A DNA stretch of 59,428 bases, from positions 1 to 59,428 of the forward strand of contig JAHFUR010000025.1 of the NCBI GenBank assembly GCA_023264995.1, given 5' to 3'. The notes under the pieces were generated by a model. The model was not told the origin of the DNA. It worked only from the letters and a program-made list of their open reading frames with translations, and made no database searches. The position numbers and the translations under genes were made by a program. This DNA is from Acidimicrobiia bacterium (lineage in GTDB: Bacteria; Actinomycetota; Acidimicrobiia; Acidimicrobiales; AC-14). Shown here one piece after another: positions 17,694 to 29,931 of this stretch. Position 1 is the first letter of the stretch. Each line of letters begins with the position of its first letter.

Positions 17694-17734
17694 TGTGGAC
17701 GAGCCTGTGGACGAGTTACAGAGGTGTCATTCTA
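17694..17734 (-). promoter_or_regulatory. dnaE promoter with two phased DnaA-box-like sites
   Basis: On the minus strand TAGAAT (17734..17729) is a good -10 hexamer and would give a leader of about 47 nt. Inside the leader, TCGTCCACA occurs twice (17702..17694 and 17714..17706), exactly 12 bp apart. This matches the actinobacterial DnaA box TTGTCCACA except for one base, and fits a Y-Y-G-TCCACA form. Binding of DnaA here could link dnaE expression to initiation; this is inferred. Confidence 0.45.
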
Positions 17735-19225
17735 CCGAACCGGGCCGGGCGCCGGCTGACGACCGGCGGCGACCAGGGCCTCGCAGGTCCGGACGAGCAC
17801 CCGGGCCGCCTCCACCGCCGGCCCGATGGCGATGGGGTTCTCGGCCCGGCGCTGCCACCGGTCGAGGGCGCCGGCCAGGGCGGCGTCGACCTCGGCGTCC
17901 TCCGCCGACGGGCCCAGGCCCAACCGGGCCCGCACGTCGGCCCCGCCGGCGCCCAGCAGGCGGGCGGCCTCGTCGCCCTGGGTGCCCGGCAGCGCCACCT
18001 CTCCGGCCCGTAGGGCGTTCAACAGGCGCATCTCGGCCAGCTCGTGGGCCCCGGCTTGGATCCGCTCGACATCGGCCTCCAGGGCCTCGCTCCGGGCCAC
18101 CGGGACGGTGCGGGCCAGGTCGGCCAGGGCCAGGAGGGCGGCCCGGCCCTTCAGCAGGTCGCTCCGGCCAGCGAACTGAGCACCCAGGAGCGCGCGGAGC
18201 TCCTCCACCCCGCTGACGGCAAGGAGCGCATCGGCCAGGTCGGCGGCGGTCGCGCCCCGGCCGTCGCGCACGATGGCCACCGCAGTGCGGGTGCCGAAGA
18301 TGCCGAACCGGCGCAGCAGCTGGGCCCGATCGGCCGCCGGCGCCGGCCCCGGCCGCACCGCGAACCGGTCGACCGAAAGGAGCAGCTCCTCCAGCTCGGT
18401 GCCCGGCAGGTCGGCGAGCTGGCGGAAGAGGCGGAGCTCGTCCTCCCGCAGGGTGACGGCGGCCTGGGCCAGGAGCCCGGCGACCGGGACGACGGTCTGG
18501 CACAGCCGGCTCAGGCGGCGGTCCTGGCGGTAGCGCTCGGCCACCCGGCCGGCCGACTCCATGGCGTCGAGGCGGCCGACGCCCAGCTCGTCGGCCCGGG
18601 AAAGGACGGCGATGGTGTTCACCGGCGTGGCCCCGGCGTAGGCGTCGTCGGTGAAGGACTCGAGGAAGCCGACGTCGGCGGCGTGGAGGTGGCGCATTAG
18701 GTAGATGACCGCGTCGGCGGGGCCGGTGCGCTCGTCGTCGGGTGCGAAGAAGCGCTCGGCGGCCTCGGTCAGGCTGGGCGTGGCCGAGGCGATGCCCGGG
18801 GTGTCGATGAGGGTGACCGACCGCAGGGCACGGCTGGGCCACTCGACGTCGATGTGGTCGAGGTCGGCGGCGGCCAGGTCGCCCAGGTCGATGTCGAGGG
18901 CGCCGTCGGTGCGGGTGAAGCGGGCGGCCTGGGCCGGCCCGGTGGCGGGGTGGAGGGTCGCCCGATAGGTGAGCCCGTCGCGGAACCACCACGGCACGCG
19001 GGTGCACTCCCCGGCGTCGGTCGGCGCCAGCTCCTCGCCGACCAGGGCATTGAGGAGGGTCGACTTACCGGCCTTGACCTTGCCGGCGATGGCCACCCGG
19101 AGCGGCCCGGCCAGGCGGGCCGCCACCTCGTCCACCCGGGCCTGACCGGCGGTGCCGGCGTAGATCTCGCCGGCGGTCCGGACCAGGGCGGCCACCTGGC
19201 CGACGAACCCGTCGGGCCCGCTCAC
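17732..19225 (-). CDS. Dynamin-like GTPase (first of a pair)
   Basis: 497 residues. The G domain has P-loop GKVKAGKST (residues 48-56), switch I threonine in ECTRVPWWF, the DTPGIA G3 motif and an S-R-A-D G4-like motif (AVLSRADELG). The remainder is helical and Ala/Leu/Arg-rich, as in bacterial dynamin-like proteins of the IniC/DynB type that remodel or repair membranes. No membrane segment is obvious, so it may act as a partner of the second GTPase. Its ATG overlaps the stop of the next GTPase gene (ATGA), so the two are translationally coupled. Confidence 0.85.
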   Translation of the reverse strand: MSGPDGFVGQVAALVRTAGEIYAGTAGQARVDEVAARLAGPLRVAIAGKVKAGKSTLLNALVGEELAPTDAGECTRVPWWFRDGLTYRATLHPATGPAQAARFTRTDGALDIDLGDLAAADLDHIDVEWPSRALRSVTLIDTPGIASATPSLTEAAERFFAPDDERTGPADAVIYLMRHLHAADVGFLESFTDDAYAGATPVNTIAVLSRADELGVGRLDAMESAGRVAERYRQDRRLSRLCQTVVPVAGLLAQAAVTLREDELRLFRQLADLPGTELEELLLSVDRFAVRPGPAPAADRAQLLRRFGIFGTRTAVAIVRDGRGATAADLADALLAVSGVEELRALLGAQFAGRSDLLKGRAALLALADLARTVPVARSEALEADVERIQAGAHELAEMRLLNALRAGEVALPGTQGDEAARLLGAGGADVRARLGLGPSAEDAEVDAALAGALDRWQRRAENPIAIGPAVEAARVLVRTCEALVAAGRQPAPGPVR

Positions 19226-21000
19226 CCGCCGGCCGCCAGGTTGTCGGCCCGGCGGGCCAGCGTTTCAAGTCGGCCCAGCCGGTCGGCCAGCTCCCGGCGG
19301 CGGCCCTCCCGGTCCGCGCCGTCGGCACCGATCGTGCGCTCGGCGGCGGCCAGTGCGTCCTGCGCCGACCGCAACAGGGCGTCGGCCCGGCGCTGGTAGG
19401 TCGTACCCAGGTCACGGCGGATGCGGCGGGTGGTGGACTTGAGCTCGCGGTCGGCGGCCTGCACCGCGTCGTGGACGTACTGGGCCACCGACTCCGTCGC
19501 CTGCTCCCGCCGGCGCTCGACCTCGCGCCGGCGGGCGTCGCGCAGGGACTTACCGCCGATGAGGGCGCCGATGACCAAGGAGAACGGGTTGAACAGGCTG
19601 ATGGAGGTGAAGGTGAGGATGCTCCCCATCACCCCCAGTGCCTCCAGCCCGCCCCACCCAGCCTGGACCAGCACCCCCCGCCACGGCGTGCCGGCCGGGA
19701 GGAGGGTGGGCGGGGCCTCCCCATCGAGCGCCGGCGGCGCCGGCGCGATGACCAGCGGGGCGATGGCGGCTTCGTGAGCCGCGAACTCGTCGGCCAGGCG
19801 GGCGGCCAGGTCCGTGGCCATGGCGCTCAGCTCCACCGTGACCGCCGACACCTCCTCGCTGACCCGGCGGGCCAGGGTGGCGCCGAACTCGTCCCAATGC
19901 GAGGCCGGGTCGGTGGTCCGCACCGTCTGCTCGGCCTCGGCCAGTACGGCTTTCGAACGCCGGGCCAGCTCCCGCTCCACGTGGGTCTCGGCGTCGACCA
20001 TCCCGTCGTCGAGGACGGCCGCCCAGTCGGCATCGGAGGTGAGGGCCCGAGCCCGCTCGACGGCCCGGGCCCGCTCCTCGATGGTCGCGACCGGGTCGGC
20101 GAGCGCGTCGTGCTCAGCCCGCAGCGGCCCGGCCAGCTGGCCAAGGACGGCGCCGGCGTCAGCCAGAGCGCCGGCGGCCAGCACCCGGCCGTAGCGGTCG
20201 GCCACGTCGTCGAGGCGGGCGACCAGGGCGGCCATCCCCGATTCGGTCCGCAGGTCGGCCCGGTCGAGGAGGTCGCCCTGCCGTTGCAGCGCGGATGACG
20301 TCGGGACCGGGGCTCCGCTCACCCCGGCCTCGGCCAGCCAGCCCTCGTCGAGCGCGAGGATCCGCCGCCACGCCGGGACCACGTCGACCTTGCTGAGGAC
20401 GGCGACGACCTCCGGGCAGGCCTGGCGGGCCGCGGCAAGGAAGTCGAGCTCGGGGCGGGTGTACTCCTGCGACGCGTCGGACACGAACAGGACGGCATGG
20501 GCCATGGTCAGCGCCGTCATGGTGGCCGCGGCGTAGGTCGAGCGCAGCCCGCCCACGCCCGGCGTGTCGACGAGGACGAGCCCGCCCCGCAGGACCGGCG
20601 CCGGCAGCCCGACCTCGACGATGCGGACCTCCTCGCGGTTGTCGGGGTTCCCCTGCTCGGTGACGTAGGCCGCCACCCGGTCGATGGCCTCCGCGCCGTC
20701 GTGGCCGTTCTCGGCCCGCCGGGCGTGCACGGCCGGCCCCGGGGCGTAGCGGACCAGCGTGGGGACCGACGTGGCCACGTCGTCGTCGACGGGGCAGACG
20801 TCGGCACCGACCAGGGCGTTGACCAGCGAGCTCTTCCCGGCCTTGAACTCGCCGGCCACGACGACGCACACCTCGGGCGCGGCGAGGCGGGCGGACTGCG
20901 CCCCGATGCGCTCGGCCAGGTCGGCACGGCCGGCAGCGACGGCCAGGTCGGCCACCTCGGACAGGAGGCCGAGCACGTCGGCAGAAGACCCCACGGGCAC
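19222..21000 (-). CDS. Dynamin-like GTPase with hydrophobic membrane hairpin (second of a pair)
   Basis: About 592 residues. P-loop GEFKAGKSS at 50-58, G3 DTPGVGGL, G4 S-K-V-D (AVLSKVDVV). A long helical region follows. Near residue 410 there is a hydrophobic segment (LGVMGSILTFTSISLFNPFSLVIGALIGG) suited to a membrane-inserting paddle, then a basic coiled region (RDARRREVERRREQATES). This matches IniA/DynA-type bacterial dynamins. The first GTG (21000) was taken; a second GTG six bases downstream is equally possible. It is divergent from the Hsp70-propeller gene with only 40 bp between starts. Confidence 0.85.
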   Translation of the reverse strand: MPVGSSADVLGLLSEVADLAVAAGRADLAERIGAQSARLAAPEVCVVVAGEFKAGKSSLVNALVGADVCPVDDDVATSVPTLVRYAPGPAVHARRAENGHDGAEAIDRVAAYVTEQGNPDNREEVRIVEVGLPAPVLRGGLVLVDTPGVGGLRSTYAAATMTALTMAHAVLFVSDASQEYTRPELDFLAAARQACPEVVAVLSKVDVVPAWRRILALDEGWLAEAGVSGAPVPTSSALQRQGDLLDRADLRTESGMAALVARLDDVADRYGRVLAAGALADAGAVLGQLAGPLRAEHDALADPVATIEERARAVERARALTSDADWAAVLDDGMVDAETHVERELARRSKAVLAEAEQTVRTTDPASHWDEFGATLARRVSEEVSAVTVELSAMATDLAARLADEFAAHEAAIAPLVIAPAPPALDGEAPPTLLPAGTPWRGVLVQAGWGGLEALGVMGSILTFTSISLFNPFSLVIGALIGGKSLRDARRREVERRREQATESVAQYVHDAVQAADRELKSTTRRIRRDLGTTYQRRADALLRSAQDALAAAERTIGADGADREGRRRELADRLGRLETLARRADNLAAGG

Positions 21001-21005
21001 AGACT

Positions 21006-21031
21006 GGCCCGGCCGGGCCGTTCGGTACAAT
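21006..21031. promoter_or_regulatory. Divergent promoter region with 14-bp palindrome
   Basis: The perfect palindrome GGCCCGGCCGGGCC (21006..21019) lies midway between the two divergent starts. TACAAT (21026..21031, plus strand) is a good -10 for the Hsp70-propeller gene and ends 9 nt before its GTG. A shared repressor at the palindrome could co-regulate both directions. High GC makes such palindromes less surprising, so this is a candidate only. Confidence 0.4.
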
Positions 21032-21040
21032 CCCCGCGCC

Positions 21041-23170
21041 GTGGACAATGTTGGCCGAGGATATGCACTAGGCATCGACCTCGGTACGACGTTCTCCGGC
21101 GCCGCCATCGCCCGTAACGGCCGAGCCGAGATGGTGGCCCTGGCCCACAGCACGTCGACGGTCCCCTCCGTGCTCTTCCTTCGAGAGGACGGCACCTTCC
21201 TGGTGGGCGACGCGGCGGCGCGCCGCGGCCTCCAGGAACCGGGCCGGCTTGCTCGCGAGTTCAAGCGGCGCTTCGGTGACACCACCCCGCTCCTCCTCGG
21301 CGGGTCGCCCTGGTCGGCCGACGCCCTGAGCGTGCAGCTCCTGCGCCACCTGGTCGAACTGGTGACGGCCCAGGAGGGCGGCCCTCCCGACGCCGTCACC
21401 GTCACCCACCCGGCCAACTGGGGCCGGTACAAGGTGGACCTCCTCCGCCAGGCGGTGCGCACTGCCGGCCTGGGCGACGCCGGCCTGCTCACCGAGCCCG
21501 AGGCCGCGGCCGTGCACTACGCGTCGACCGAACGGATGGAGCCGGGCGAGGTGGTGGCCATCTACGACCTGGGCGGGGGCACCTTCGACGCCGCCGCCCT
21601 GCGTCGTACCGCCACCGGCTTCGAGCTGCTCGGCACAGCCGAGGGCATCGAGCGGCTGGGCGGCATCGACTTCGACGAGGCCGTCCTGGCCCACGTGGTC
21701 TCCTTCGCCGGGCCGGCCGTGGCCGACCTGGACCCGGCCGACCCGGCGGCGCTGGCCGCCCTGGCCCGCCTGCGGGCCGAGTGCGTGGCGGCCAAGGAGG
21801 GCCTGTCGGAGGACACCGAGGTGTCGATCCCGGTGGTCCTCCCGTCGCTGCAGACCCAGATCCGCCTGACCCGCTCGGAGTTCGAGGACATGGTGCGGCC
21901 CACCATCGCCGAGACGACGTCGGTCCTGAGCCGTACGTTGCGCTCGGGAGGCGTGGAGCCCGAGCAGGTCAAGGCCGTGCTGCTCGTCGGCGGGTCGTCG
22001 CGCATCCCTCTCGTCGGCCAACTGGTGGCCGCGGAGATGGGCCGGCCGGTGGCGGTCGACGTCCACCCCAAGCACGCGGTGGCGCTGGGTGCGGCCCTCG
22101 ACGCGGCCGCGGCCGGCCAGCCGGCGGTCGCCGCTGCACCGGTCGCGCCGGTCGCCCCGCCGGCACGACCGCGGACGGTGGCGCCGCCACCCTCGGTCGT
22201 CCCGACCGTGGCCGTCGAGGCCAAACCGGGGCGGGGGCGCCTGGTGGCCGGCGCCGGGGCGGCGGTTGTCGCCATCATCGTGGCCGCCGCCGTCGTGCTC
22301 TCACGGGGCGGTGACAAGGTCCCGCCGAGACCCATCCCCGAGGTGCCGACGTACGAGGTGCAGGACTCGGTGATGAGCATGGCCCAGGGCGCGGGCGCCA
22401 TCTGGCTGGCCGGCCCCAACGGCGTCAGCCGGTTCGACCCGGCCACGAACAGCGTCACCCAGGCCCTGCGCGTGGGCAAGACCGGCGATACCCGGCGGGT
22501 CACCTTCGGGGCGGGCCTGGTGTGGGTCACCGACCAGGAGGAGTCGACCCTCGCCCGCATCGACCCCGCCACCAACGCCGTGGTCGGCACCGTCACCCTG
22601 AGCGGCAAGCCGCAGGATGTCCTCTTCGCCGGCGGTGCGGTGTGGGTGACACTGCCCGAGAGCGGCGTGGTGCTGCGGGTCGACCCGGGTACCCAGCAGG
22701 TCACGCCGGTCCCTGTCCGGGGACGGCCGACGAACCTGGCGTTCGGCTCGGGCACCCTGTGGGTGAGCGACCCGGCCAACAACACCCTGGCCAAGGTCGA
22801 CCCGGTGCGCCTGGCCGTCACCGGCGACGCGGCCACCGGCGGCTGCCCGGACTACGTGGCCGCCGACGACACCGCGGTGTGGGTGCAGGACGAGTGCAAG
22901 ATCACGACGGTGTTCCGCGTCGACCCCACGACCGGGAAGGTGTCGGGCATGGCCGCCGTGGGCAAGGACGCCAAGGCCGTCGCCCTCACCGGCGGGACGC
23001 TGTGGGTGGCCAACGTGACCGACAACACCGTGTCGGTGGTCGACGTCGCCTCCATGTCGGCCCGCCGCACGGTCCGCGTCGGCTCCTACCCGTCCTCGTT
23101 CGTGGCGGTCAACGGCGTCATGTGGGTGGCCAACCAGGGCGACAGCACCATCTCCCGCATCGACCCGTGA
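21041..23170 (+). CDS. Hsp70 ATPase domain fused through a membrane segment to a seven-bladed propeller
   Basis: 709 residues. Residues 8-370 are an Hsp70/actin-fold ATPase with phosphate-1 GIDLGTTFSG (11-20), phosphate-2 IYDLGGGTFDAAAL and adenosine motif VLLVGGSSRIPLVG. The Hsp70 substrate-binding domain is absent. A Pro/Ala/Val linker leads to a single membrane helix (about 401-422, GAGAAVVAIIVAAAVVLSR). Residues 445-709 hold seven repeats of about 40 residues, each with an aromatic strand of the type G-x-[LVI]-W-V (AIWLAG, LVWVTD, AVWVTL, TLWVSD, AVWVQD, TLWVAN, VMWVAN), i.e. a YVTN/Vgb-like propeller outside the cell. GTG 21041 fits the -10 spacing; the frame upstream is non-coding. Confidence 0.9.
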   Translation: MDNVGRGYALGIDLGTTFSGAAIARNGRAEMVALAHSTSTVPSVLFLREDGTFLVGDAAARRGLQEPGRLAREFKRRFGDTTPLLLGGSPWSADALSVQLLRHLVELVTAQEGGPPDAVTVTHPANWGRYKVDLLRQAVRTAGLGDAGLLTEPEAAAVHYASTERMEPGEVVAIYDLGGGTFDAAALRRTATGFELLGTAEGIERLGGIDFDEAVLAHVVSFAGPAVADLDPADPAALAALARLRAECVAAKEGLSEDTEVSIPVVLPSLQTQIRLTRSEFEDMVRPTIAETTSVLSRTLRSGGVEPEQVKAVLLVGGSSRIPLVGQLVAAEMGRPVAVDVHPKHAVALGAALDAAAAGQPAVAAAPVAPVAPPARPRTVAPPPSVVPTVAVEAKPGRGRLVAGAGAAVVAIIVAAAVVLSRGGDKVPPRPIPEVPTYEVQDSVMSMAQGAGAIWLAGPNGVSRFDPATNSVTQALRVGKTGDTRRVTFGAGLVWVTDQEESTLARIDPATNAVVGTVTLSGKPQDVLFAGGAVWVTLPESGVVLRVDPGTQQVTPVPVRGRPTNLAFGSGTLWVSDPANNTLAKVDPVRLAVTGDAATGGCPDYVAADDTAVWVQDECKITTVFRVDPTTGKVSGMAAVGKDAKAVALTGGTLWVANVTDNTVSVVDVASMSARRTVRVGSYPSSFVAVNGVMWVANQGDSTISRIDP

Positions 23171-23233: not shown

Positions 23234-24352
23234 CTACCCGGCACGCGCCTGGCCCTGTTCGAGGACGCGAGCGTAGAAGGCCCGGTGAGCGGTGGCCGCC
23301 GCCTCCCATGTGTGGCGGGCGGCCAGGGCTCGGCCCCGGGCCGCCAGCGCCGGCGCCGGCTCGTCGAGCGCGGCGGCGACCTGGGCGGCGAAGCCCTCGG
23401 GGCTTGAAGCGAAGCGGGCGGCGCCGTAGAAGATGTCGCCGAGAACAGGCAGGTCGCGCATGACGACGGGGACGCCGGCGGCCAGGGCCTCCATGGCCGC
23501 CATGCCGAAACCCTCCCTGGTGGACGGGAACGCGAACACCGCCGCCCCGGCTACCAGCGCCGGCAGGCTGTCGTAGGCGACAGGACCGAGCACGATCGGC
23601 TCGACGCCCAGCTCCGCACACCGGCGCTCGACCTCGGCCCGGTAGGGGCGGTGGTCGAACAGCGTTTCGCCGCCGGCGATGACCAGGACCGGCTCGGGGT
23701 GGGTCGACTGCAACCGGGCCCAGGTCTCGACCAGGTCCAGGGTGCCCTTCCGGGGCTCGATACCGCCCACCGCCAGCACGTAGGGCCGGCCGATGCGCTC
23801 GGCCCACGCCGCCCGGCCCGCGACATCGGTCGTCGCGCGCGCGAAGCGGTCGAAGTCCACGCCGTTGGGGATGACCGTCGCCCGGTAACCCCAGCCCGCC
23901 ACCAGCTCGGCGGCGACAGCCCGGGAGACGCAGACATGGGCGATGGGCCGGCGGATGGCCCGGTCGTGGCAGGCCACGAGCTCGGGAGTGGTGAACGTAT
24001 CGAGGTGGTGGACGGTACGGACGCAGCGGGGGACGGCGTTGGCCGCGATGCAGTCCTGGGCGTGGACCACGTCGGCGGAGGAAACCTCAACAGCGTCGGC
24101 CAGCGCCCGGATCGACCCGGTGACCCGCCGGCCGAAGTCGTCCTCCCGGGCCGGCGCCGGCACGACCCGCACCCGGACCGCCGGGTCGACGGGCCGGAAG
24201 ACGCCGTCGTCCCCATCACGACCCAGGGCCCACACGGTCACGTCCTCACCTTGGGCGGCCAGCGCCTCGGCCAGGGCCAGGGTGTGCACAACCGAGCCAC
24301 GGGGCCGGGTGGAGTAGGTGACGAATGAGATGCGCACGCCGCTCAGCCGCAC
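23234..24352 (-). CDS. Family-4-type glycosyltransferase, MSMEG_0565-like
   Basis: 372 residues with GT-B fold marks. The N-terminal domain contains GSVVHTLALAEALAAQG and HAQDCIAANAVPRC. The linker has VIPNGVDFDRF. The C-terminal donor-binding domain has YVLAVGGIEPRKG and the E-x7-E block REGFGMAAMEALAAG. A glycosyltransferase of this family accompanies actinobacterial and cyanobacterial nitrilase (Nit1C) clusters. It is the last gene of the operon. GTG 24352 overlaps the end of the inactive nitrilase gene by 10 bp; an internal GTG at 24337 is a possible alternative. Confidence 0.85.
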   Translation of the reverse strand: MRLSGVRISFVTYSTRPRGSVVHTLALAEALAAQGEDVTVWALGRDGDDGVFRPVDPAVRVRVVPAPAREDDFGRRVTGSIRALADAVEVSSADVVHAQDCIAANAVPRCVRTVHHLDTFTTPELVACHDRAIRRPIAHVCVSRAVAAELVAGWGYRATVIPNGVDFDRFARATTDVAGRAAWAERIGRPYVLAVGGIEPRKGTLDLVETWARLQSTHPEPVLVIAGGETLFDHRPYRAEVERRCAELGVEPIVLGPVAYDSLPALVAGAAVFAFPSTREGFGMAAMEALAAGVPVVMRDLPVLGDIFYGAARFASSPEGFAAQVAAALDEPAPALAARGRALAARHTWEAAATAHRAFYARVLEQGQARAG

Positions 24353-25173
24353 CCGTACGCCGCCGGCCGGCGGTCAGCCAGGTGATGGAGCACCCGCCGT
24401 GCCCGGGACAAGTCGTGGTCGAGGTCGATGTCGGCTACGGCCAACCCGGCCTTTGCCGAGGTCCGGGCCAGGATGTCGCCACCGGGACCGACAACCTTGG
24501 CCCGGCCCAGGAAACGCAGCCGGCCGTACGTACCCGTTTGGTTGGACGACACCACGACCACCTGGTTCTCGGCGGCCCGGGCGCAGTCGTACAGGTCGAA
24601 GAGGCGGGTCTGGCGGTCGGTGACCAGGCGGGGGGCCTGGTTGGTGAGGCTCGCCGGCCAGGCCGACAGGAACGCCAGCATCGTCGCTCCGTCGAGGGCC
24701 AGAGTGCGGGCCGCCTCGGGGAACGTCTTGTCGTAGTCGATCAGCATGCCCATGCGCCCGAGGGGGGTGTCGAACGCGGCGAACCTGTCGCCGGCGCCGT
24801 AGACGGCCGGTTCCCCGGCGGGCTGGTGGACCTTGCGGTGGCGTCCCAGCACCCCGTCGCCGGACACGCACACGGCGGCGTTGAAGCGGACGTCGCCGTC
24901 GCGCTCGCAGTAGCCGGCGCAGACCACCCGGCTGCCGGCCAGCTCCACCAGGCGCTTCACCTCCGGCCCGTCCGGGTCAATGGCGTCAGGTCGGTCGGCG
25001 GCGTCGCTCGGTGCGAAGCCGGCGAGGTACCCGCCCAGGGCGGCATCGGGAAGGACGACGAGGTGGGCGCCCCGCTCGGCCGCGTCGGCCACCAGGGCCT
25101 CGATGCGGGCCAGGCAGGCGTCGATGTCGCGACCGAAGTGGGCGGCGGCCGCGGCGACGCGGATGAGAGCCAC
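24343..25173 (-). CDS. Catalytically inactive nitrilase-superfamily paralogue
   Basis: 276 residues, almost the same length as the nitrilase at 26646 and similar along its whole length (shared AGYCE-DG, VCVSGDGVLG, RKVH, FPEAARTLALDGA, LSAWPAS, GRAKVVGPGG). The catalytic triad is changed: the glutamate is Asp43 (VVLPDAALGGYL), lysine is kept (Lys114 in RHRKVH), and the nucleophilic cysteine is Asp146 (GMLIDYDK). Without the cysteine, normal nitrilase or amidase chemistry is not possible. It may be a structural or regulatory partner, since nitrilases assemble into spirals. GTG 25173 begins 7 nt after the FAD enzyme's stop. Confidence 0.85.
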   Translation of the reverse strand: MALIRVAAAAAHFGRDIDACLARIEALVADAAERGAHLVVLPDAALGGYLAGFAPSDAADRPDAIDPDGPEVKRLVELAGSRVVCAGYCERDGDVRFNAAVCVSGDGVLGRHRKVHQPAGEPAVYGAGDRFAAFDTPLGRMGMLIDYDKTFPEAARTLALDGATMLAFLSAWPASLTNQAPRLVTDRQTRLFDLYDCARAAENQVVVVSSNQTGTYGRLRFLGRAKVVGPGGDILARTSAKAGLAVADIDLDHDLSRARRVLHHLADRRPAAYGCG

Positions 25174-25180
25174 GCCCGGT

Positions 25181-26620
25181 TCAACCGGTACGGCCGAGCG
25201 CTGGTGCCGGGACGGCGCCGCCGGCGATGGCAACGAGGTCGTCGTGCGACGGCGCGGGCAGGGCGGGAGGACGCCAGTCGCCGGCGACGACAGCCCGCGT
25301 CCGGGCAACGATGTCGGGGTCGTCCAGCACCGCGCTTGGCAGCTCCAGCAACTGCTGTGCGCGAGTGAAGGCGTGCCAGACGACGGGGTCGCGCTGGGCC
25401 CCGAGGTTGGCCTCAGCGTTGCTCACCGTGGTCCGGCCGCCGGACCGGACAGCTTCGTCCGGCCGCCACCGGGACAGGCGGCTTGCATCCTGGTCGACGG
25501 AGTCCCAGAACCAGGGTTCGCCGGACCGGCGTAGCTCGGCATCGACGGCGAGAGCCCGGCTCTCGGCGTCGTCATGCGCGTCGACGGCCCGAGCCACGGC
25601 CAGGGCGGAGGCTATGGCGAGGGTCGACCCCCGGGTGTGCGCCGGGTTGGTGATGCACGCCGAGTCGCCGGCGGCGAGCACACCGAGGGCGACGGGCCGC
25701 CCGCGCTCGACGAGAGAGCGGAACCGGTTCTCCAGCCCCCGCATCGTGGCCACGCTCGAGATGGGCTCGGCGTCGTCGGGGTCGAGCCACTCGGAAACGA
25801 CCGGGACCGCTCGGGCCGCGGCGAGGAACGCCGCTCCGTCATGCAGGGCCCGCATGTCTCTGTCCTCGGGCAGGATGCCGAACGTCACCGAGAAGGTGCC
25901 ATTGTCGGCCGGGAACGCGAGGCACGAGTACCGGTCAAAGGAGCCGCCGGCCACGTAACCCCGGTTCAGGGGCGCCGGCGAGGCACCGGACCGGCGGCGG
26001 AAGAACCGGGAGCAGTAGGCGATCCCGCACGGAACGACGACCTCGTCGGGCACCGACGCCCCGCACTCGGCCAACCAGCTCGGCACCATCGATCGGCGAC
26101 CACCGGCATCGACCACCGTCTCGGCCGTCACGGCCGAGCCGTCGTCGAGGTGCACGCCCCGCACGACAGGGACCGGACCGTCCACGCAGACGAGCCCCGT
26201 GACGGCCACGCCGGCCCGAAGTGTGACGCCCGGTTCGGCCTGTACGACCCGGCGGAGGGCCCACTCGAAGACCGAGCGGCGCACGGCCAGCACGACCAGG
26301 TCGGGATCGGGCGCCGGCGGGGTGGTCAGCGTGGCCGGAGGGGCGGCGCACAGGTCGATCTCCTCGGCGCCGGCATCCCGGACTGCGGCGAGCACGTCGG
26401 GGGCCTCGGCGGCGAGAAGCTGGCGGCACAGGGCCACGAAGGCGTGCGACTGACCGGCCTGCGGCGTCCCCCGCCGAGCCCACCCCGGGACGGCGTCCAC
26501 CGTGGCGGGGGGCGGGGCCGGGTCGCGCTCGAGGAGGGTGACGGAGTGGCCCCGGCGAGCGAGGAACAGCGCGGCGGCCAGACCGCCCAGGCCCCCGCCC
26601 ACGACGGCGGTCGTGGTCAC
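25181..26620 (-). CDS. FAD-dependent oxidoreductase of the nitrilase cluster
   Basis: 479 residues. The Rossmann start is VVGGGLGGLAAALFLARRGHSVTLLERD; the second FAD motif is the G-D-S block ALGVLAAGDSACITNPAHTRG. The arrangement resembles geranylgeranyl reductase/halogenase-type flavoproteins. Nit1C clusters usually contain an FAD enzyme in this role, although this one seems to be from a different flavoprotein branch. GTG 26620 was chosen because the glycine motif begins right after it. It is the second copy of a duplicated 27-base sequence; starting at the first copy would end after ten codons. Confidence 0.85.
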   Translation of the reverse strand: MTTTAVVGGGLGGLAAALFLARRGHSVTLLERDPAPPPATVDAVPGWARRGTPQAGQSHAFVALCRQLLAAEAPDVLAAVRDAGAEEIDLCAAPPATLTTPPAPDPDLVVLAVRRSVFEWALRRVVQAEPGVTLRAGVAVTGLVCVDGPVPVVRGVHLDDGSAVTAETVVDAGGRRSMVPSWLAECGASVPDEVVVPCGIAYCSRFFRRRSGASPAPLNRGYVAGGSFDRYSCLAFPADNGTFSVTFGILPEDRDMRALHDGAAFLAAARAVPVVSEWLDPDDAEPISSVATMRGLENRFRSLVERGRPVALGVLAAGDSACITNPAHTRGSTLAIASALAVARAVDAHDDAESRALAVDAELRRSGEPWFWDSVDQDASRLSRWRPDEAVRSGGRTTVSNAEANLGAQRDPVVWHAFTRAQQLLELPSAVLDDPDIVARTRAVVAGDWRPPALPAPSHDDLVAIAGGAVPAPALGRTG

Positions 26621-26661
26621 CGGACGGCGACCGGGGCGGTCGTGGTCACCGGACGGCGACC
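26606..26661. repeat. 29-bp tandem duplication at a gene junction
   Basis: A 27-base sequence (26606..26632) is repeated exactly at 26635..26661, giving a 29-bp period. On the minus strand each copy carries GTCGCCGTCCGGTGACCACG, which is at once the end of the nitrilase (V-A-V-R-stop) and the start of the FAD enzyme (GTG-ACC-ACG). Before the duplication the genes would have overlapped as GTGA. Now the nitrilase stops in one copy and the oxidoreductase starts in the other. Confidence 0.85.
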
Positions 26662-27479
26662 GCCATGTCATAGGCGTCCGGCCGGCGGTCATGCAGGTGG
26701 CACATCACCCGTCGGGCGGCGGCCAGCGAGGCCGGCACGTCCACGTCGGCGACGGCCAGCCCGGCCGAGGTCCCGGTGGCCGCGAGGACCTCCCCACCCG
26801 GGCCGACGACCTTGGCCCGGCCCACGAACTGCATCGTGCCGAAGACACCTGACTGGTTGGCCGAGACCCACACGACCTGGTTCTCCAGCGCCCGGACCTG
26901 GTCGAAAAGGTCAAAACGCCGGGCCCACCGGTCCTCGGCCAGCACTGGCGCAGGGTCGGTCCGGCTCGCCGGCCAGGCCGACAGGCACGCCACGATCTCG
27001 GCGCCGTCGAGCGCCAGGGTGCGGGCCGCCTCGGGGAAGGCCTTGTCGTAGCAAATCATCATCCCCAGGCGGCCGACCGGGGTGTCGAACGCCGTGAAGC
27101 GGTCGCCGGCGTCGTAGCTGGCCCCCTCGGCCAAGGGGTGGTGGACCTTGCGATGGTGACCGAGCACGCCGTCGCCCGACACGCACACGGCGGCGTTGTA
27201 CCGGGCCGCCCCGTCGCCCTCGCAGTAGCCGGCGCATACCACCACGTCGCCGGCCAAGCGGGCCAGGGCGGCGATCTCCGGGCCGGCGGGACCGAAGGCC
27301 GGCGGGAGGTCGGGCGGGCCGCCGGGGCCGAGATGGGCCAGGTACCCGCCGAGGGTGGCCTCGGGGAAGACGACGAGGTCGACGCCGGTTGCCCGGGCGT
27401 GGTCGAGGACGGACTCGATGCGGGCGAACGCCGCTGACAGGTCGCGGCCGAAGTTGTCGGCCACCGCCATCGCCTTCAC
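26646..27479 (-). CDS. Nit6803/Nit1-type nitrilase (carbon-nitrogen hydrolase)
   Basis: 277 residues with the full catalytic triad Glu40 (VVFPEATLGGYL), Lys111 (GHHRKVHHP) and Cys143 (GMMICYDKAFPEAAR). Nitrilases convert nitriles to acids and ammonia through a thioimidate on the cysteine. The surrounding genes (radical SAM, GNAT/AIR synthase, NitB) identify the Nit1C cluster, linked elsewhere to growth on cyanide and to nitrogen starvation. GTG 27479 overlaps the stop of the upstream fused gene (GTGA). The C-terminus lies in the 29-bp duplication. Confidence 0.92.
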   Translation of the reverse strand: MKAMAVADNFGRDLSAAFARIESVLDHARATGVDLVVFPEATLGGYLAHLGPGGPPDLPPAFGPAGPEIAALARLAGDVVVCAGYCEGDGAARYNAAVCVSGDGVLGHHRKVHHPLAEGASYDAGDRFTAFDTPVGRLGMMICYDKAFPEAARTLALDGAEIVACLSAWPASRTDPAPVLAEDRWARRFDLFDQVRALENQVVWVSANQSGVFGTMQFVGRAKVVGPGGEVLAATGTSAGLAVADVDVPASLAAARRVMCHLHDRRPDAYDMAVAVR

Positions 27480-28879
27480 GCCGCACCGAGCCCCGTGGCC
27501 GGGCCGGCGACGGCGACGGTGCGCTCACCGTCGGGCCAGACCAGGGTCACGCCCTGACCGGGGACCAGCCGACCGCAGACCGCCGAGGTGGCCGGCCCCG
27601 CGTCGATCGACGGGGCGCCCGGCCGGCCGGCGGTGAGCATCCCGAAGCCGGGGAAGCAGGTGAGCCAGTCGCCCGTGGCGACGCCGGCCGGCCGGGGCAC
27701 GCGGGCGACATCGAGCTCGGCCCCACAGCCGCTGGCCTCGGCCAACATGGCCAGGGTGCCCACGATGCCCGCCATGCTCACGTCCTTGGCCGCGGCTGGC
27801 CGGGCGTGGGCGACTGCACCGACCATGGCGGCCAGCTCGGGGGGTTGGCGGGTGGTCGTCGAGTCCCACTGGAGCCCGGTGTACCCGGTCCGCCAGTCCC
27901 CGCCGAGGTCGACGGTGAGGGTGACCGCGTCGCCGGGTCGACCGCCGCCGGCGGGCACGGGATGCGCCGTGCGACCGAGACCGGAGGCGTACAGCGACGG
28001 GGGCACACCGATCTGGGTGTGGCCACCCAGCACGGGGACACCGTAGGCGTCGGTCGCGGCGCGGATACCGCCGAGCACCCGGCTCACTTGGGAGAGCGTC
28101 CTGCCGGCGACCGCGTCGAGGACCCCGACCGGGGCGGCGCCCATGGCCGCCAGGTCGTTGACAGTGACGAGCACCGCGCACCACCCGGCCCAGAACGGGT
28201 CGCGCTCGACCATCGAGGGGACGATGGCGTCGCAGGTGGCGACGAGATCGGACCCGGGCACAGGCACGCCGTCATCGCCCACGAAGCCGTCGCCACCAGG
28301 CCGGAGGCCGTCGAGGAGGCGGGCGATGTCGCCCTTGGCCGTCGTGACGAGCGCCTGGATGCGGTGGATGGGCCAGCGCATCAGCACGTGCGGGCGTCCA
28401 GCAGCGCTCACACCCCGCACGGTGTCCCAGCCCAGCCGGTGGAACAGCCGCTCCCGGGCCGGCTGCACGGTGGCATCGAAGCGCAGTGCCCCCTCCCGCT
28501 CGGCCCGGGCGCAGGCGGCGCGAACAAGGGCGTGGCCGACGGCGGCGAAGCCGCGGGCGTCGGTCCGTACGGCCAACCGGCTCCCTGTCCACCAGCCCAC
28601 CTCCGGGGGCGGCCCGACCGGGGCGACCCGCACGCCGCCGAGCACCCGACCGTCACGGTCACGGGCGACAAGAACGATCGTGCGGGCGTCGAGGTCGAGG
28701 TCGTCGAGGTCGTCACCCCGGAACATCCCCTGCTCGGCGACGAACACCGAGAGCCGGATGCGCCGGTACTCGGAGACCTCGCCAGCATCGGCTTGGCCGA
28801 TGAGGAACGGCGGCCGGCGGGCGAGGGTGGCGGTGTCGCCCAGGAGGGTCAGGATGTCGGCCACGTCGGTACCGGTCAT
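27476..28879 (-). CDS. Fused GNAT acetyltransferase and AIR synthase-related protein (MSMEG_0567 + Sll0787-like)
   Basis: 467 residues that join two genes usually separate in Nit1C clusters. Residues 18-180 form a GNAT domain (YRRIRLSVFVAEQGMF, VLVARDRDGRVLGGVRVAP, GHALVRAACARAEREGALRF). Residues 190-460 form a PurM/AIR-synthase-like domain (VGDDGVPVPGSD, VTVNDLAAMGAAPVGVLDAV, GHTQIGVPPS, AKDVSMAGIVGTLAMLAEASG). AIR synthase-like proteins bind ATP and activate carbonyl or amide oxygens. ATG 28879 overlaps the radical SAM stop by four bases. The fusion implies that the two activities work on one intermediate. Confidence 0.88.
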   Translation of the reverse strand: MTGTDVADILTLLGDTATLARRPPFLIGQADAGEVSEYRRIRLSVFVAEQGMFRGDDLDDLDLDARTIVLVARDRDGRVLGGVRVAPVGPPPEVGWWTGSRLAVRTDARGFAAVGHALVRAACARAEREGALRFDATVQPARERLFHRLGWDTVRGVSAAGRPHVLMRWPIHRIQALVTTAKGDIARLLDGLRPGGDGFVGDDGVPVPGSDLVATCDAIVPSMVERDPFWAGWCAVLVTVNDLAAMGAAPVGVLDAVAGRTLSQVSRVLGGIRAATDAYGVPVLGGHTQIGVPPSLYASGLGRTAHPVPAGGGRPGDAVTLTVDLGGDWRTGYTGLQWDSTTTRQPPELAAMVGAVAHARPAAAKDVSMAGIVGTLAMLAEASGCGAELDVARVPRPAGVATGDWLTCFPGFGMLTAGRPGAPSIDAGPATSAVCGRLVPGQGVTLVWPDGERTVAVAGPATGLGAA

Positions 28880-29931
28880 GCGCCGGCCGCCGCCAGGGCG
28901 CTGCACGCCCCGCACGCCGCGCAGCCGGCGCCCTGGTCGCGCCCGAACATGCCCGCGGCCTGCAACTCGGCCGCCACCTCCAACGTGACCCGGCCCACCA
29001 GCTCGGCGGGCGGGGGCCGGAGCCCGTCGGCCTCGGCCAGCGTGCCGTGGAGCGGGCGAACCGGGACGACGAAGGGGTAGACGCCCATCTCGATCAGCCG
29101 CCGGGCACCGGCGACCAGCTCGTCGGGATCCTCGCCCAAGCCGACGAGGAGGTAGGTCGACACCCGGTTGGGACCGAACAGGCGCACCGCCTCGGTCCAG
29201 GCCGCGTCGTACTCCGCCAAGGTGACGGTGGCCTTGCCCGGCATCCAACGCCGGCGGACCGCGTCGTCGAGGCTCTCGACGTGGATACCGATGGCGGTGA
29301 CGCCGGCGTCGCGCAGGTCGGCGAGGGCCCTCGGGTCAGCCGGCGGCTCACACTGCACCTGGATGGGCAGGCCCGGCACCGCGGCCAGCACGGCCCGTAC
29401 GCAGCGGGCCAGGTAGCGGGCCCCCCGGTCGGCGGTGGCCGTGGTGCCCGTCGTCATGAGCATCTGCGTCACGCCGTCGAGCCGCACCGCGGCCTCGGCC
29501 ACCTCGGCCAACTGTGCCGGCGTCTTCACCCGCGTCGTGGCCCCCGCGGTGAGCGACTCCTCGACGGCGCAGAAGCGGCACCGGTCCTCGGGGTCGTAGC
29601 GCACGCAGGTCTGGATGACGGTGGTGGCCAGGACATCGCGGCCGTGGAGCCGGGCCAGGTGGTGGTACGGGATGCCGTCGGCCGTCTTCAGGTCGTAGAA
29701 CGCGGGACGGTCGACGGCCTCCACCTCGAGGCCGAGGTCGGCACCGTCGAGGTACAGCCGGCCGCCGGCGACGGTGAACGGGCTGCTGAGGTCTATCGGC
29801 AGCGCCGCGGCCTGGCCGGCGAGGATGACGTGCCCGTCGTCGCTGGGGCCGGCGCCGGCGCGCCGGCGGACCGGCGCGTCGACTCTGACCCCGCGGACGG
29901 CGACGTCGACCCGGGTGGTGAAGATGGTCAC
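28876..29931 (-). CDS. Radical SAM enzyme, MSMEG_0568 family
   Basis: 351 residues. The [4Fe-4S] ligands appear as C-V-R-Y-D-P-E-D-R-C-R-F-C, an eight-residue then two-residue spacing instead of CxxxCxxC. Barrel segments follow: MLMTTGTTATADRGARYL, PIQVQCEPPADPRAL, AIGIHVESLDDAVRRR, STYLLVGLGEDPDELV. Extra cysteines near the C-terminus (GAGCAACGACSAL) could hold an auxiliary cluster. Radical SAM enzymes with this partner set are part of the conserved Nit1C operon; the substrate is unknown. Its GTG shares a base with the NitB stop (TAGTG). Confidence 0.9.
   Translation of the reverse strand: MTIFTTRVDVAVRGVRVDAPVRRRAGAGPSDDGHVILAGQAAALPIDLSSPFTVAGGRLYLDGADLGLEVEAVDRPAFYDLKTADGIPYHHLARLHGRDVLATTVIQTCVRYDPEDRCRFCAVEESLTAGATTRVKTPAQLAEVAEAAVRLDGVTQMLMTTGTTATADRGARYLARCVRAVLAAVPGLPIQVQCEPPADPRALADLRDAGVTAIGIHVESLDDAVRRRWMPGKATVTLAEYDAAWTEAVRLFGPNRVSTYLLVGLGEDPDELVAGARRLIEMGVYPFVVPVRPLHGTLAEADGLRPPPAELVGRVTLEVAAELQAAGMFGRDQGAGCAACGACSALAAAGA

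Follow-up and report, generated by a model that had tools for sequence, protein, structure and literature searches.

A 59,428-nucleotide (nt) stretch of DNA from an Acidimicrobiia bacterium (contig JAHFUR010000025.1, assembly GCA_023264995.1; hereafter the window) encodes two overlapping dynamin-like GTPases that stand divergent from a 709-amino acid (aa) protein combining an Hsp70 ATPase domain, a membrane helix, and a beta-propeller. By sequence, the GTPases belong to the IniA/IniC family, and there is a strong genetic association between this family and Hsp70-like membrane proteins. In a sample of 396 Actinomycetota genomes, an Hsp70 without the DnaK linker motif (non-DnaK) lies within 10 kb of 21 of the 22 strong IniA+IniC pairs. 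Where the Hsp70 gene is not adjacent to a dynamin gene, IniA occurs elsewhere in the same genome (19 out of 19 genomes). An initial annotation of the window had proposed that a dynamin pair is coupled to an Hsp70-membrane protein and had called for a co-occurrence search across the phylum. The association found is widespread, and the conserved neighborhood and co-occurrence strongly support that coupling. Comparison across actinobacteria suggests that dynamin systems of this kind regularly include the Hsp70-like partner, and that it has been overlooked.

Association with IniA and IniC across Actinomycetota

The GTPases both match Dynamin_N in Pfam (5.1e-22 for the IniA-type and 3.3e-12 for the IniC-type protein). 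The IniA-type protein matches the structure of Mycobacterium smegmatis IniA (6j72) over residues 10–590 (E = 1.3e-67, phmmer). It also has 31% identity, over its length, to the IniA-position gene of a mycobacterial locus with a genuine IniR (1,414.9 bits on the NCBI IniR model, cut-off 750), and for the IniC-type protein, 466 aligned columns give 42% identity to the gene in the IniC position of that same locus. The near-full-length match and these identities identify an IniA/IniC pair, so that the likeness to known bacterial dynamin pairs first noted for these genes becomes membership in one family, not mere similarity. A hydrophobic paddle had also been proposed. Residues 464–482 of the IniA-type protein align with the corresponding loop of mycobacterial IniA and are a candidate membrane-contact loop, but their hydrophobicity is moderate. 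Similarity to LeoA was identified with PADLOC in both proteins (3.4e-19 for IniA-type and 3.9e-12 for IniC-type), with best stretches that cover only parts of the LeoABC profiles; the IniA/IniC match is far stronger. An anti-phage system was considered for the locus and left aside because the Leo matches are partial.

The IniA profile matched 67 places in the phylum sample at 1e-20, of which 24, in 22 genomes, scored at least 400 bits. The regions around all 24 were examined, and an IniC gene neighbors 22 of them (partial in L064). These 22 pairs represent eight families and 12 genera. The only pair without a non-DnaK Hsp70 (L061) has its IniA 1.8 kb from the contig start, and its Hsp70, cut by the end of the region, was classed as DnaK from its sequence. 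L070 ends in a fragment of DnaK that was counted as non-DnaK, and two other Hsp70s are present in that locus. The broad Hsp70 profile used here was iterated on the loci themselves; L059, L060, L064, L065, and L068 had already been found by a profile built without them. In 15 of the 21 loci, IniA and its nearest Hsp70 are divergent; in the remainder they are same-strand or convergent. Gene order varies between loci, and the link between Hsp70 and dynamin thus survives rearrangement.

Companions known from mycobacteria are less constant. With profiles built from the studied loci themselves, an IniB N-terminal domain (IniB-N) was identified in 18 of the 22 strong-pair loci (three of them weak, 25–27 bits) and an IniR-like gene in 16, making Hsp70 the most constant companion found. 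One genome (G083) contains two whole IniR-like/IniB-N/IniA/IniC/Hsp70 loci, L056 and L057, as if the set duplicates as a unit. The IniB-like protein of the Asanoa locus L005 is unnamed by Pfam and NCBIfam and has a weak iterated-profile match (E = 1e-7). Two Saccharopolyspora loci (L014:11911–14355 and L016) have an acidic repeat-rich open reading frame (ORF) between Hsp70 and IniA, the usual place of IniB, that is 815 aa long in L014 and has no family match.

Searches from the Hsp70 side were also made. All eight matches to a narrow Hsp70 profile above 430 bits, from seven genomes, are less than 4 kb from IniA, and the next match scores 312. With the broad profile, the top-scoring Hsp70 of the genome lies near IniA for 19 of the 21 genomes that have a strong pair with an Hsp70 nearby (the exceptions are G243 and G375). 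A genome scan with the 709-aa protein yielded 48 loci, 28 of which have an IniA- or IniC-type gene above 150 bits in the flanks examined. One locus, L049, stems from a single metagenome-assembled genome (MAG) that bears the label Chloroflexota, and its contig may have been mis-binned. Whole genomes were searched for IniA for 19 of the 20 flank-negative loci (L051 was left out), and all 19 carry it, 18 with matches above 440 bits and G479 as two fragments. The baseline in the phylum sample is 22 out of 396 genomes with an IniA of at least 400 bits. In Frankia sp. QA3, provided that contig C1 and the chromosome record of L035 are the same, IniA is ~12 kb upstream of Hsp70, just past the flank. 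When 74 Hsp70 domains were placed on a tree, the label "linked" required 9 changes compared to 20.5 in shuffles, none of 500 being as low. Three DnaKs were placed inside this tree by joining long branches, and nothing was drawn from their placement.

Weaker dynamins served as controls. Of the 43 IniA places below 400 bits, the regions around 13 loci were examined (L079–L089, L069, and L078). No Hsp70 was identified in the 11 distant-dynamin loci L079–L089 (best scores 116–183 bits), where the region of L081 ends 1.2 kb past the match. L078, a weaker broken pair, has an Hsp70 122 bp away.

The association was also followed within one genus (g81, the genus of G379), which was called mycobacterial from the IniR of L070 and from IniB matches. 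Its 78 genomes contain 56 IniA matches in 55 genomes, with an Hsp70 within 10 kb of 46 (38 of them divergent and upstream), counting no Hsp70 matches weaker than 1e-84. Seven of the 10 IniA genes without a near Hsp70 are less than 6 kb from the contig start, a position that could, but need not, account for the missing neighbor. Broad-profile Hsp70 matches number 115 in 63 of the 78 genomes, which are some 5–6 Mb in size, and many genomes have further Hsp70s elsewhere. We estimate that chance would place an Hsp70 within 10 kb of a mycobacterial IniA in about one case in a hundred.

Architecture and variation of the Hsp70-like partner

The initial annotation described the 709-aa protein as keeping three Hsp70 ATPase motifs, with the substrate-binding domain replaced by a membrane helix and a propeller, and this description holds. 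The motifs GIDLGTT, DLGGGT, and VGGSSR are all present, the HSP70 family of Pfam matches at 4e-54, and propeller-type matches are C-terminal. An AlphaFold2 model (mean pLDDT 86.8) recovered the ATPase domain, the helix, and the propeller. The modeled ATPase domain has a TM-score of 0.87 by target length and an rmsd of 3.0 to DnaK (4rtf), and Z values of 40.9–44.2 to 50 Hsp70 entries among the matches listed. Residues D13, T16, K75, E152, D176, and T181, at the catalytic positions by DnaK residue numbers, are kept. The DnaK linker motif is absent from the protein, as is the substrate-binding domain, with the best HSP70 stretch stopping at profile position 373 of 599. Residues 361–404 form a disordered linker, mostly below pLDDT 50, followed by the helix and the propeller. 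The model has 28 strands from residue 437 on, which we read as seven four-stranded blades with the first strand (437–439) closing the last blade. Among solved structures, the propeller is nearest in sequence to that of a surface-layer protein (1l0q, E = 9.3e-13). The 709-aa protein thus shares the ATPase-domain fold and catalytic residues of DnaK/Hsp70 chaperones but has a helix and a propeller in place of the linker, substrate-binding domain, and lid. The ATPase fold begins at residue 8, too early for a signal peptide to precede it, and the propeller is therefore predicted to be outside and the ATPase domain inside the cytoplasmic membrane.

The Hsp70 domain is constant, and a membrane-helix-like stretch follows it in 44 of 47 linked full-length proteins by simple hydropathy. 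A YVTN propeller is present in the studied protein and L004, and in L018 and L044 by Pfam. A PQQ/BamB-like propeller was identified in L024 by Pfam and in its sister L033 by sequence, with no dynamins in the flanks of either. Other outer parts are glycine-rich or proline/threonine-rich tails, and many loci have a small outer domain with a GGFHLHI or HVHFFFD motif. The small domain (L005:11579–12013 and relatives) has an HLHI/HAHFF/HLHFF motif and two invariant cysteines, and its model has a pLDDT of 76.5. It matched no Pfam family at E 0.05 except Myb (0.04) in one of 12 members, and nothing in the PDB at E 0.001 (best 7.2e-3). A side clade of the same Hsp70 subfamily (L036, L040, L041, L042, L043, L045, and L047) has an FHA domain, which Pfam identified in L036 and L041. 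Most of its members lack a clear membrane helix, and L043 is the only one with a dynamin gene in its flanks. The propeller, which had been taken as the defining part of a receptor, was therefore ruled out as the common part: outer domains are exchanged among members, which have other domains, tails, or FHA in its place. Tandem pairs of Hsp70-membrane proteins were observed at L020:6555–12277 and L062:5314–8408, with no dynamins in the stretch examined.

Across the 28 rows aligned for the narrow family (of 45 possible), the 709-aa protein among them, the catalytic positions do not vary; they are partly lost in L059, L060, L064, and L065. They are also lost in the aligned mycobacterial partners, represented by seven rows from six of nine loci. 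The 709-aa protein is therefore probably an active ATPase, and the aligned mycobacterial partners are probably not, being predicted pseudo-ATPases.

Locus layout and relation to known systems

The locus is in GC-rich DNA (67%–78%), and its ORFs are as initially described, with two overlapping dynamin genes facing the gene for the Hsp70-membrane-propeller protein across a short intergenic region (Table 1). The GTG start of the IniC-type gene overlaps the stop of the IniA-type gene by 4 bp, and the IniA-type gene has a second candidate start, a GTG at 20994. The fusion is genuine and the neighborhood is not private to this genome. Its nearest relative by locus, L004, is a MAG of another species, labelled Acidimicrobiia, that encodes a full-length 714-aa version of the protein at 80% identity, ruling out a sequencing error; a private neighborhood is ruled out by the wide occurrence in other genomes. 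The sequence TACAAT at 21026–21031 is retained in L004 amid otherwise diverged sequence and is a candidate −10 box for a near-leaderless transcript of the Hsp70-like gene. No complete sigma-70 promoter pair was found in 20700–21400.

Table 1. Features of the dynamin/Hsp70 locus, in window positions
Feature	Position	Strand	Basis
IniC-type dynamin-like GTPase	17732–19225	−	497 aa, GTG start; Dynamin_N; motifs GKVKAGKS, DTPG, SRAD; 42% to IniC-position gene
IniA-type dynamin-like GTPase	19222–21000	−	592 aa, GTG start at 21000; Dynamin_N; 6j72; G1, G3, and G4 motifs GEFKAGKS, DTPG, SKVD
Moderately hydrophobic segment, IniA-type residues 464–482	19555–19611	−	hydropathy peak 1.59, best 19-residue mean
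Divergent intergenic region, 40 bp, between IniA-type (−) and Hsp70-like (+) genes	21001–21040		
Hsp70 ATPase domain/membrane helix/propeller protein	21041–23170	+	709 aa, GTG start
Hsp70 nucleotide-binding domain, residues 8–360	21062–22120	+	HSP70 4e-54; 4rtf fold match; catalytic positions kept
Single transmembrane helix, residues 401–419	22241–22297	+	hydropathy 2.72; residues 405–422 in model
Seven-bladed YVTN-type beta-propeller, residues 437–709, predicted outside	22349–23167	+	model strands; beta_rpt_yvtn 3.3e-15; 1l0q

The window yielded neither an IniB-N nor an IniR-like gene; no genome-wide search for IniB was made, and one IniR-like query against the host genome matched DNA-binding ends only. 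With slightly better than even confidence, we consider the locus a reduced IniA/IniC (iniBAC-type) system with an Hsp70-type partner. A row of minus-strand genes at 23234–29931 adjoins the locus and is not part of the system. It includes a glycosyltransferase, two nitrilase-type hydrolases on either side of an FAD-dependent oxidoreductase, an ORF that combines GNAT and AIR-synthase domains, and a radical SAM gene, and resembles the Nit1C nitrilase cluster.

The closest described system is the mycobacterial iniBAC/IniR system (6j72; PMC6715688, PMC5760070, PMC11077946), which shares adjacent and co-directional IniA- and IniC-type GTPases. Mycobacterial iniBAC loci also have a non-DnaK Hsp70 near iniA, and relatives of the studied locus elsewhere have IniB-N and IniR-like genes. 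The window differs by having no IniB or IniR and an Hsp70 partner with intact ATPase residues and a propeller. M. smegmatis IniA is reported to cut membranes in a GTP-dependent manner in vitro (PMC6715688), and IniA and IniC jointly support vesicle release in mycobacteria according to a review (PMC11077946). A dnaK-like gene beside iniR in M. smegmatis receives a one-sentence mention in PMC5760070. Beyond that sentence, we found no description of this link between Hsp70 and dynamin in the open-licence literature searched.

Two other systems are similar in part. DO-GTPase conflict systems, as described in PMC7159879, likewise have paired GTPases and Hsp70s, some without a peptide-binding domain and consisting of the ATPase domain only. 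However, that paper assigns DO-GTPases to a TRAFAC family of their own, partnered by GAP1, and its main text contains neither "dynamin" nor "IniA". The GTPases studied here match Dynamin_N. A Nostoc dynamin with a DnaJ-like domain beside BDLP1 (PMC6104087) is also a genetic link between dynamin and Hsp70 machinery, but it is a J-domain fusion, not an Hsp70 receptor, and comes from another phylum. IniA/IniC, Hsp70 domains, and propellers are already known; their combination, and an Hsp70-type membrane protein as a regular partner of this dynamin family, were not found described beyond the sentence in PMC5760070.

Proposed function and alternative explanations

With moderate confidence, we propose that the 709-aa protein is a membrane-spanning switch of the Hsp70 type that senses the envelope and governs membrane remodeling by IniA/IniC. 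The propeller would bind a component of the cell envelope, or lose contact with it upon envelope damage, and the ATPase domain would in turn change its conformation or nucleotide state. The ATPase domain could then recruit, load, or restrain the IniA/IniC GTPases on the adjacent membrane, which would deform or cut the membrane to repair it or to release vesicles. In this proposal, we infer how the protein is oriented, that it senses a ligand, that it touches the GTPases, and which way control runs. A protein that spans the membrane, with one domain outside and a nucleotide switch inside, and whose gene nearly always lies beside the pair is most simply the receptor or regulator of that pair. 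An exchanged outer part and a constant inner part are expected if the input differs by envelope and the inside partner is the same. Since IniR and IniB can be missing while Hsp70 and both GTPases stay, as in the window, that inside partner is arguably the dynamin pair. The ATP-driven signal coupled to remodeling that was initially suggested fits the 709-aa protein, whose catalytic residues are kept, but not the aligned mycobacterial partners; the direction of the signal and its link to remodeling are putative.

Several observations count against this proposal. Nine of the 22 pairs are from one genus, and 20 of the 48 loci found with the 709-aa protein have no dynamin in the flanks examined, short contigs among them. 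L066 and L067 have a strong IniA with neither IniC nor Hsp70, the weaker pair of L069 (241/275 bits) has no Hsp70, and in G157, for which the phylum scan gave no IniA match, the dynamin genes near a broad-type Hsp70 (L063) are limited to IniC-like pieces. Three of the 10 mycobacterial IniA genes without a near Hsp70 (G460, G422, and G436) are well inside contigs, and nine of the 63 mycobacterial genomes with a broad-profile Hsp70 have no IniA match. The outer part is highly variable among members, L059, L064, and L078 (borderline) have no membrane helix, and the aligned mycobacterial partners (L068, L070, and L072–L075) have catalytic changes of D to S, K to V, E to D, and T to G where the residue is present. 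The loss of ATPase residues in these mycobacterial partners and the helix-less loci indicate that some members can do without ATP hydrolysis and some without an outer domain.

These same observations bear on a rather unlikely alternative, in which the protein is a tether or scaffold that anchors IniA/IniC between the membrane and the wall or surface layer through its propeller or proline-rich tail, with a structural Hsp70 fold and a minor role for nucleotide state. The predicted pseudo-ATPases among the aligned mycobacterial partners, with proline/threonine-rich outer tails in those examined, favor a tether, as do the free variation of outer parts and the surface-layer relative of the propeller. 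Against a tether are the catalytic positions, which are invariant throughout the aligned narrow family, and L059 and L064, which have no membrane helix. Somewhat less likely again is that the Hsp70-like protein senses envelope stress and controls an IniR-type regulator, and hence dynamin expression and not the dynamins directly. The IniR-like gene in 16 of 22 loci and the order Hsp70, IniR, second Hsp70 in mycobacterial loci L070, L071, and L075 are consistent with such a transcriptional arm. However, six of the 22 loci, including the one studied, show no IniR-like gene in the stretch examined, five of these six keep Hsp70, and the IniR-like query hit only DNA-binding ends in the host genome.

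Hsc70 disassembles clathrin coats, and by analogy, the Hsp70 domain could be a chaperone-like disassembly factor for dynamin polymers. Its ATPase domain is DnaK-type, and the cyanobacterial dynamin with a DnaJ-like domain beside BDLP1 is an independent link between Hsp70 and dynamin (PMC6104087). We nevertheless consider this role improbable, as the protein has no substrate-binding domain or DnaK-type linker and neither GTPase of the locus has an HPD motif. Chance neighbors, or general conservation of gene order with no functional link, are a very improbable explanation. The sampled genomes are related, as the distribution of the pairs over families and genera indicates. However, the association is conserved while gene order is not, co-occurrence is complete in the 19 genomes where the genes are apart, the label "linked" changes less often on the tree than in any shuffle, and the 11 loci of weaker distant dynamins have no Hsp70 neighbor.

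At just short of even confidence, we extend the proposed switch beyond this locus. An Hsp70 ATPase domain without its chaperone half may act as a single-pass transmembrane receptor that switches a dynamin fission pair, and may be the regular partner that has been missing from the picture of IniA/IniC throughout Actinomycetota. In mycobacterial iniBAC, which would be included, it would be a pseudo-ATPase, and outer domains would be swapped per envelope. Bacterial dynamins cut, fuse, or vesiculate membranes, and the cues for where and when they do so are mostly unknown. A conserved membrane-spanning Hsp70-type partner, if true, gives IniA/IniC an input that is testable by gene removal, and would make the Hsp70 domain a signaling module without chaperone function. 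For the iniBAC system, which mycobacteria induce upon envelope damage, it would also mean that one component has been overlooked.

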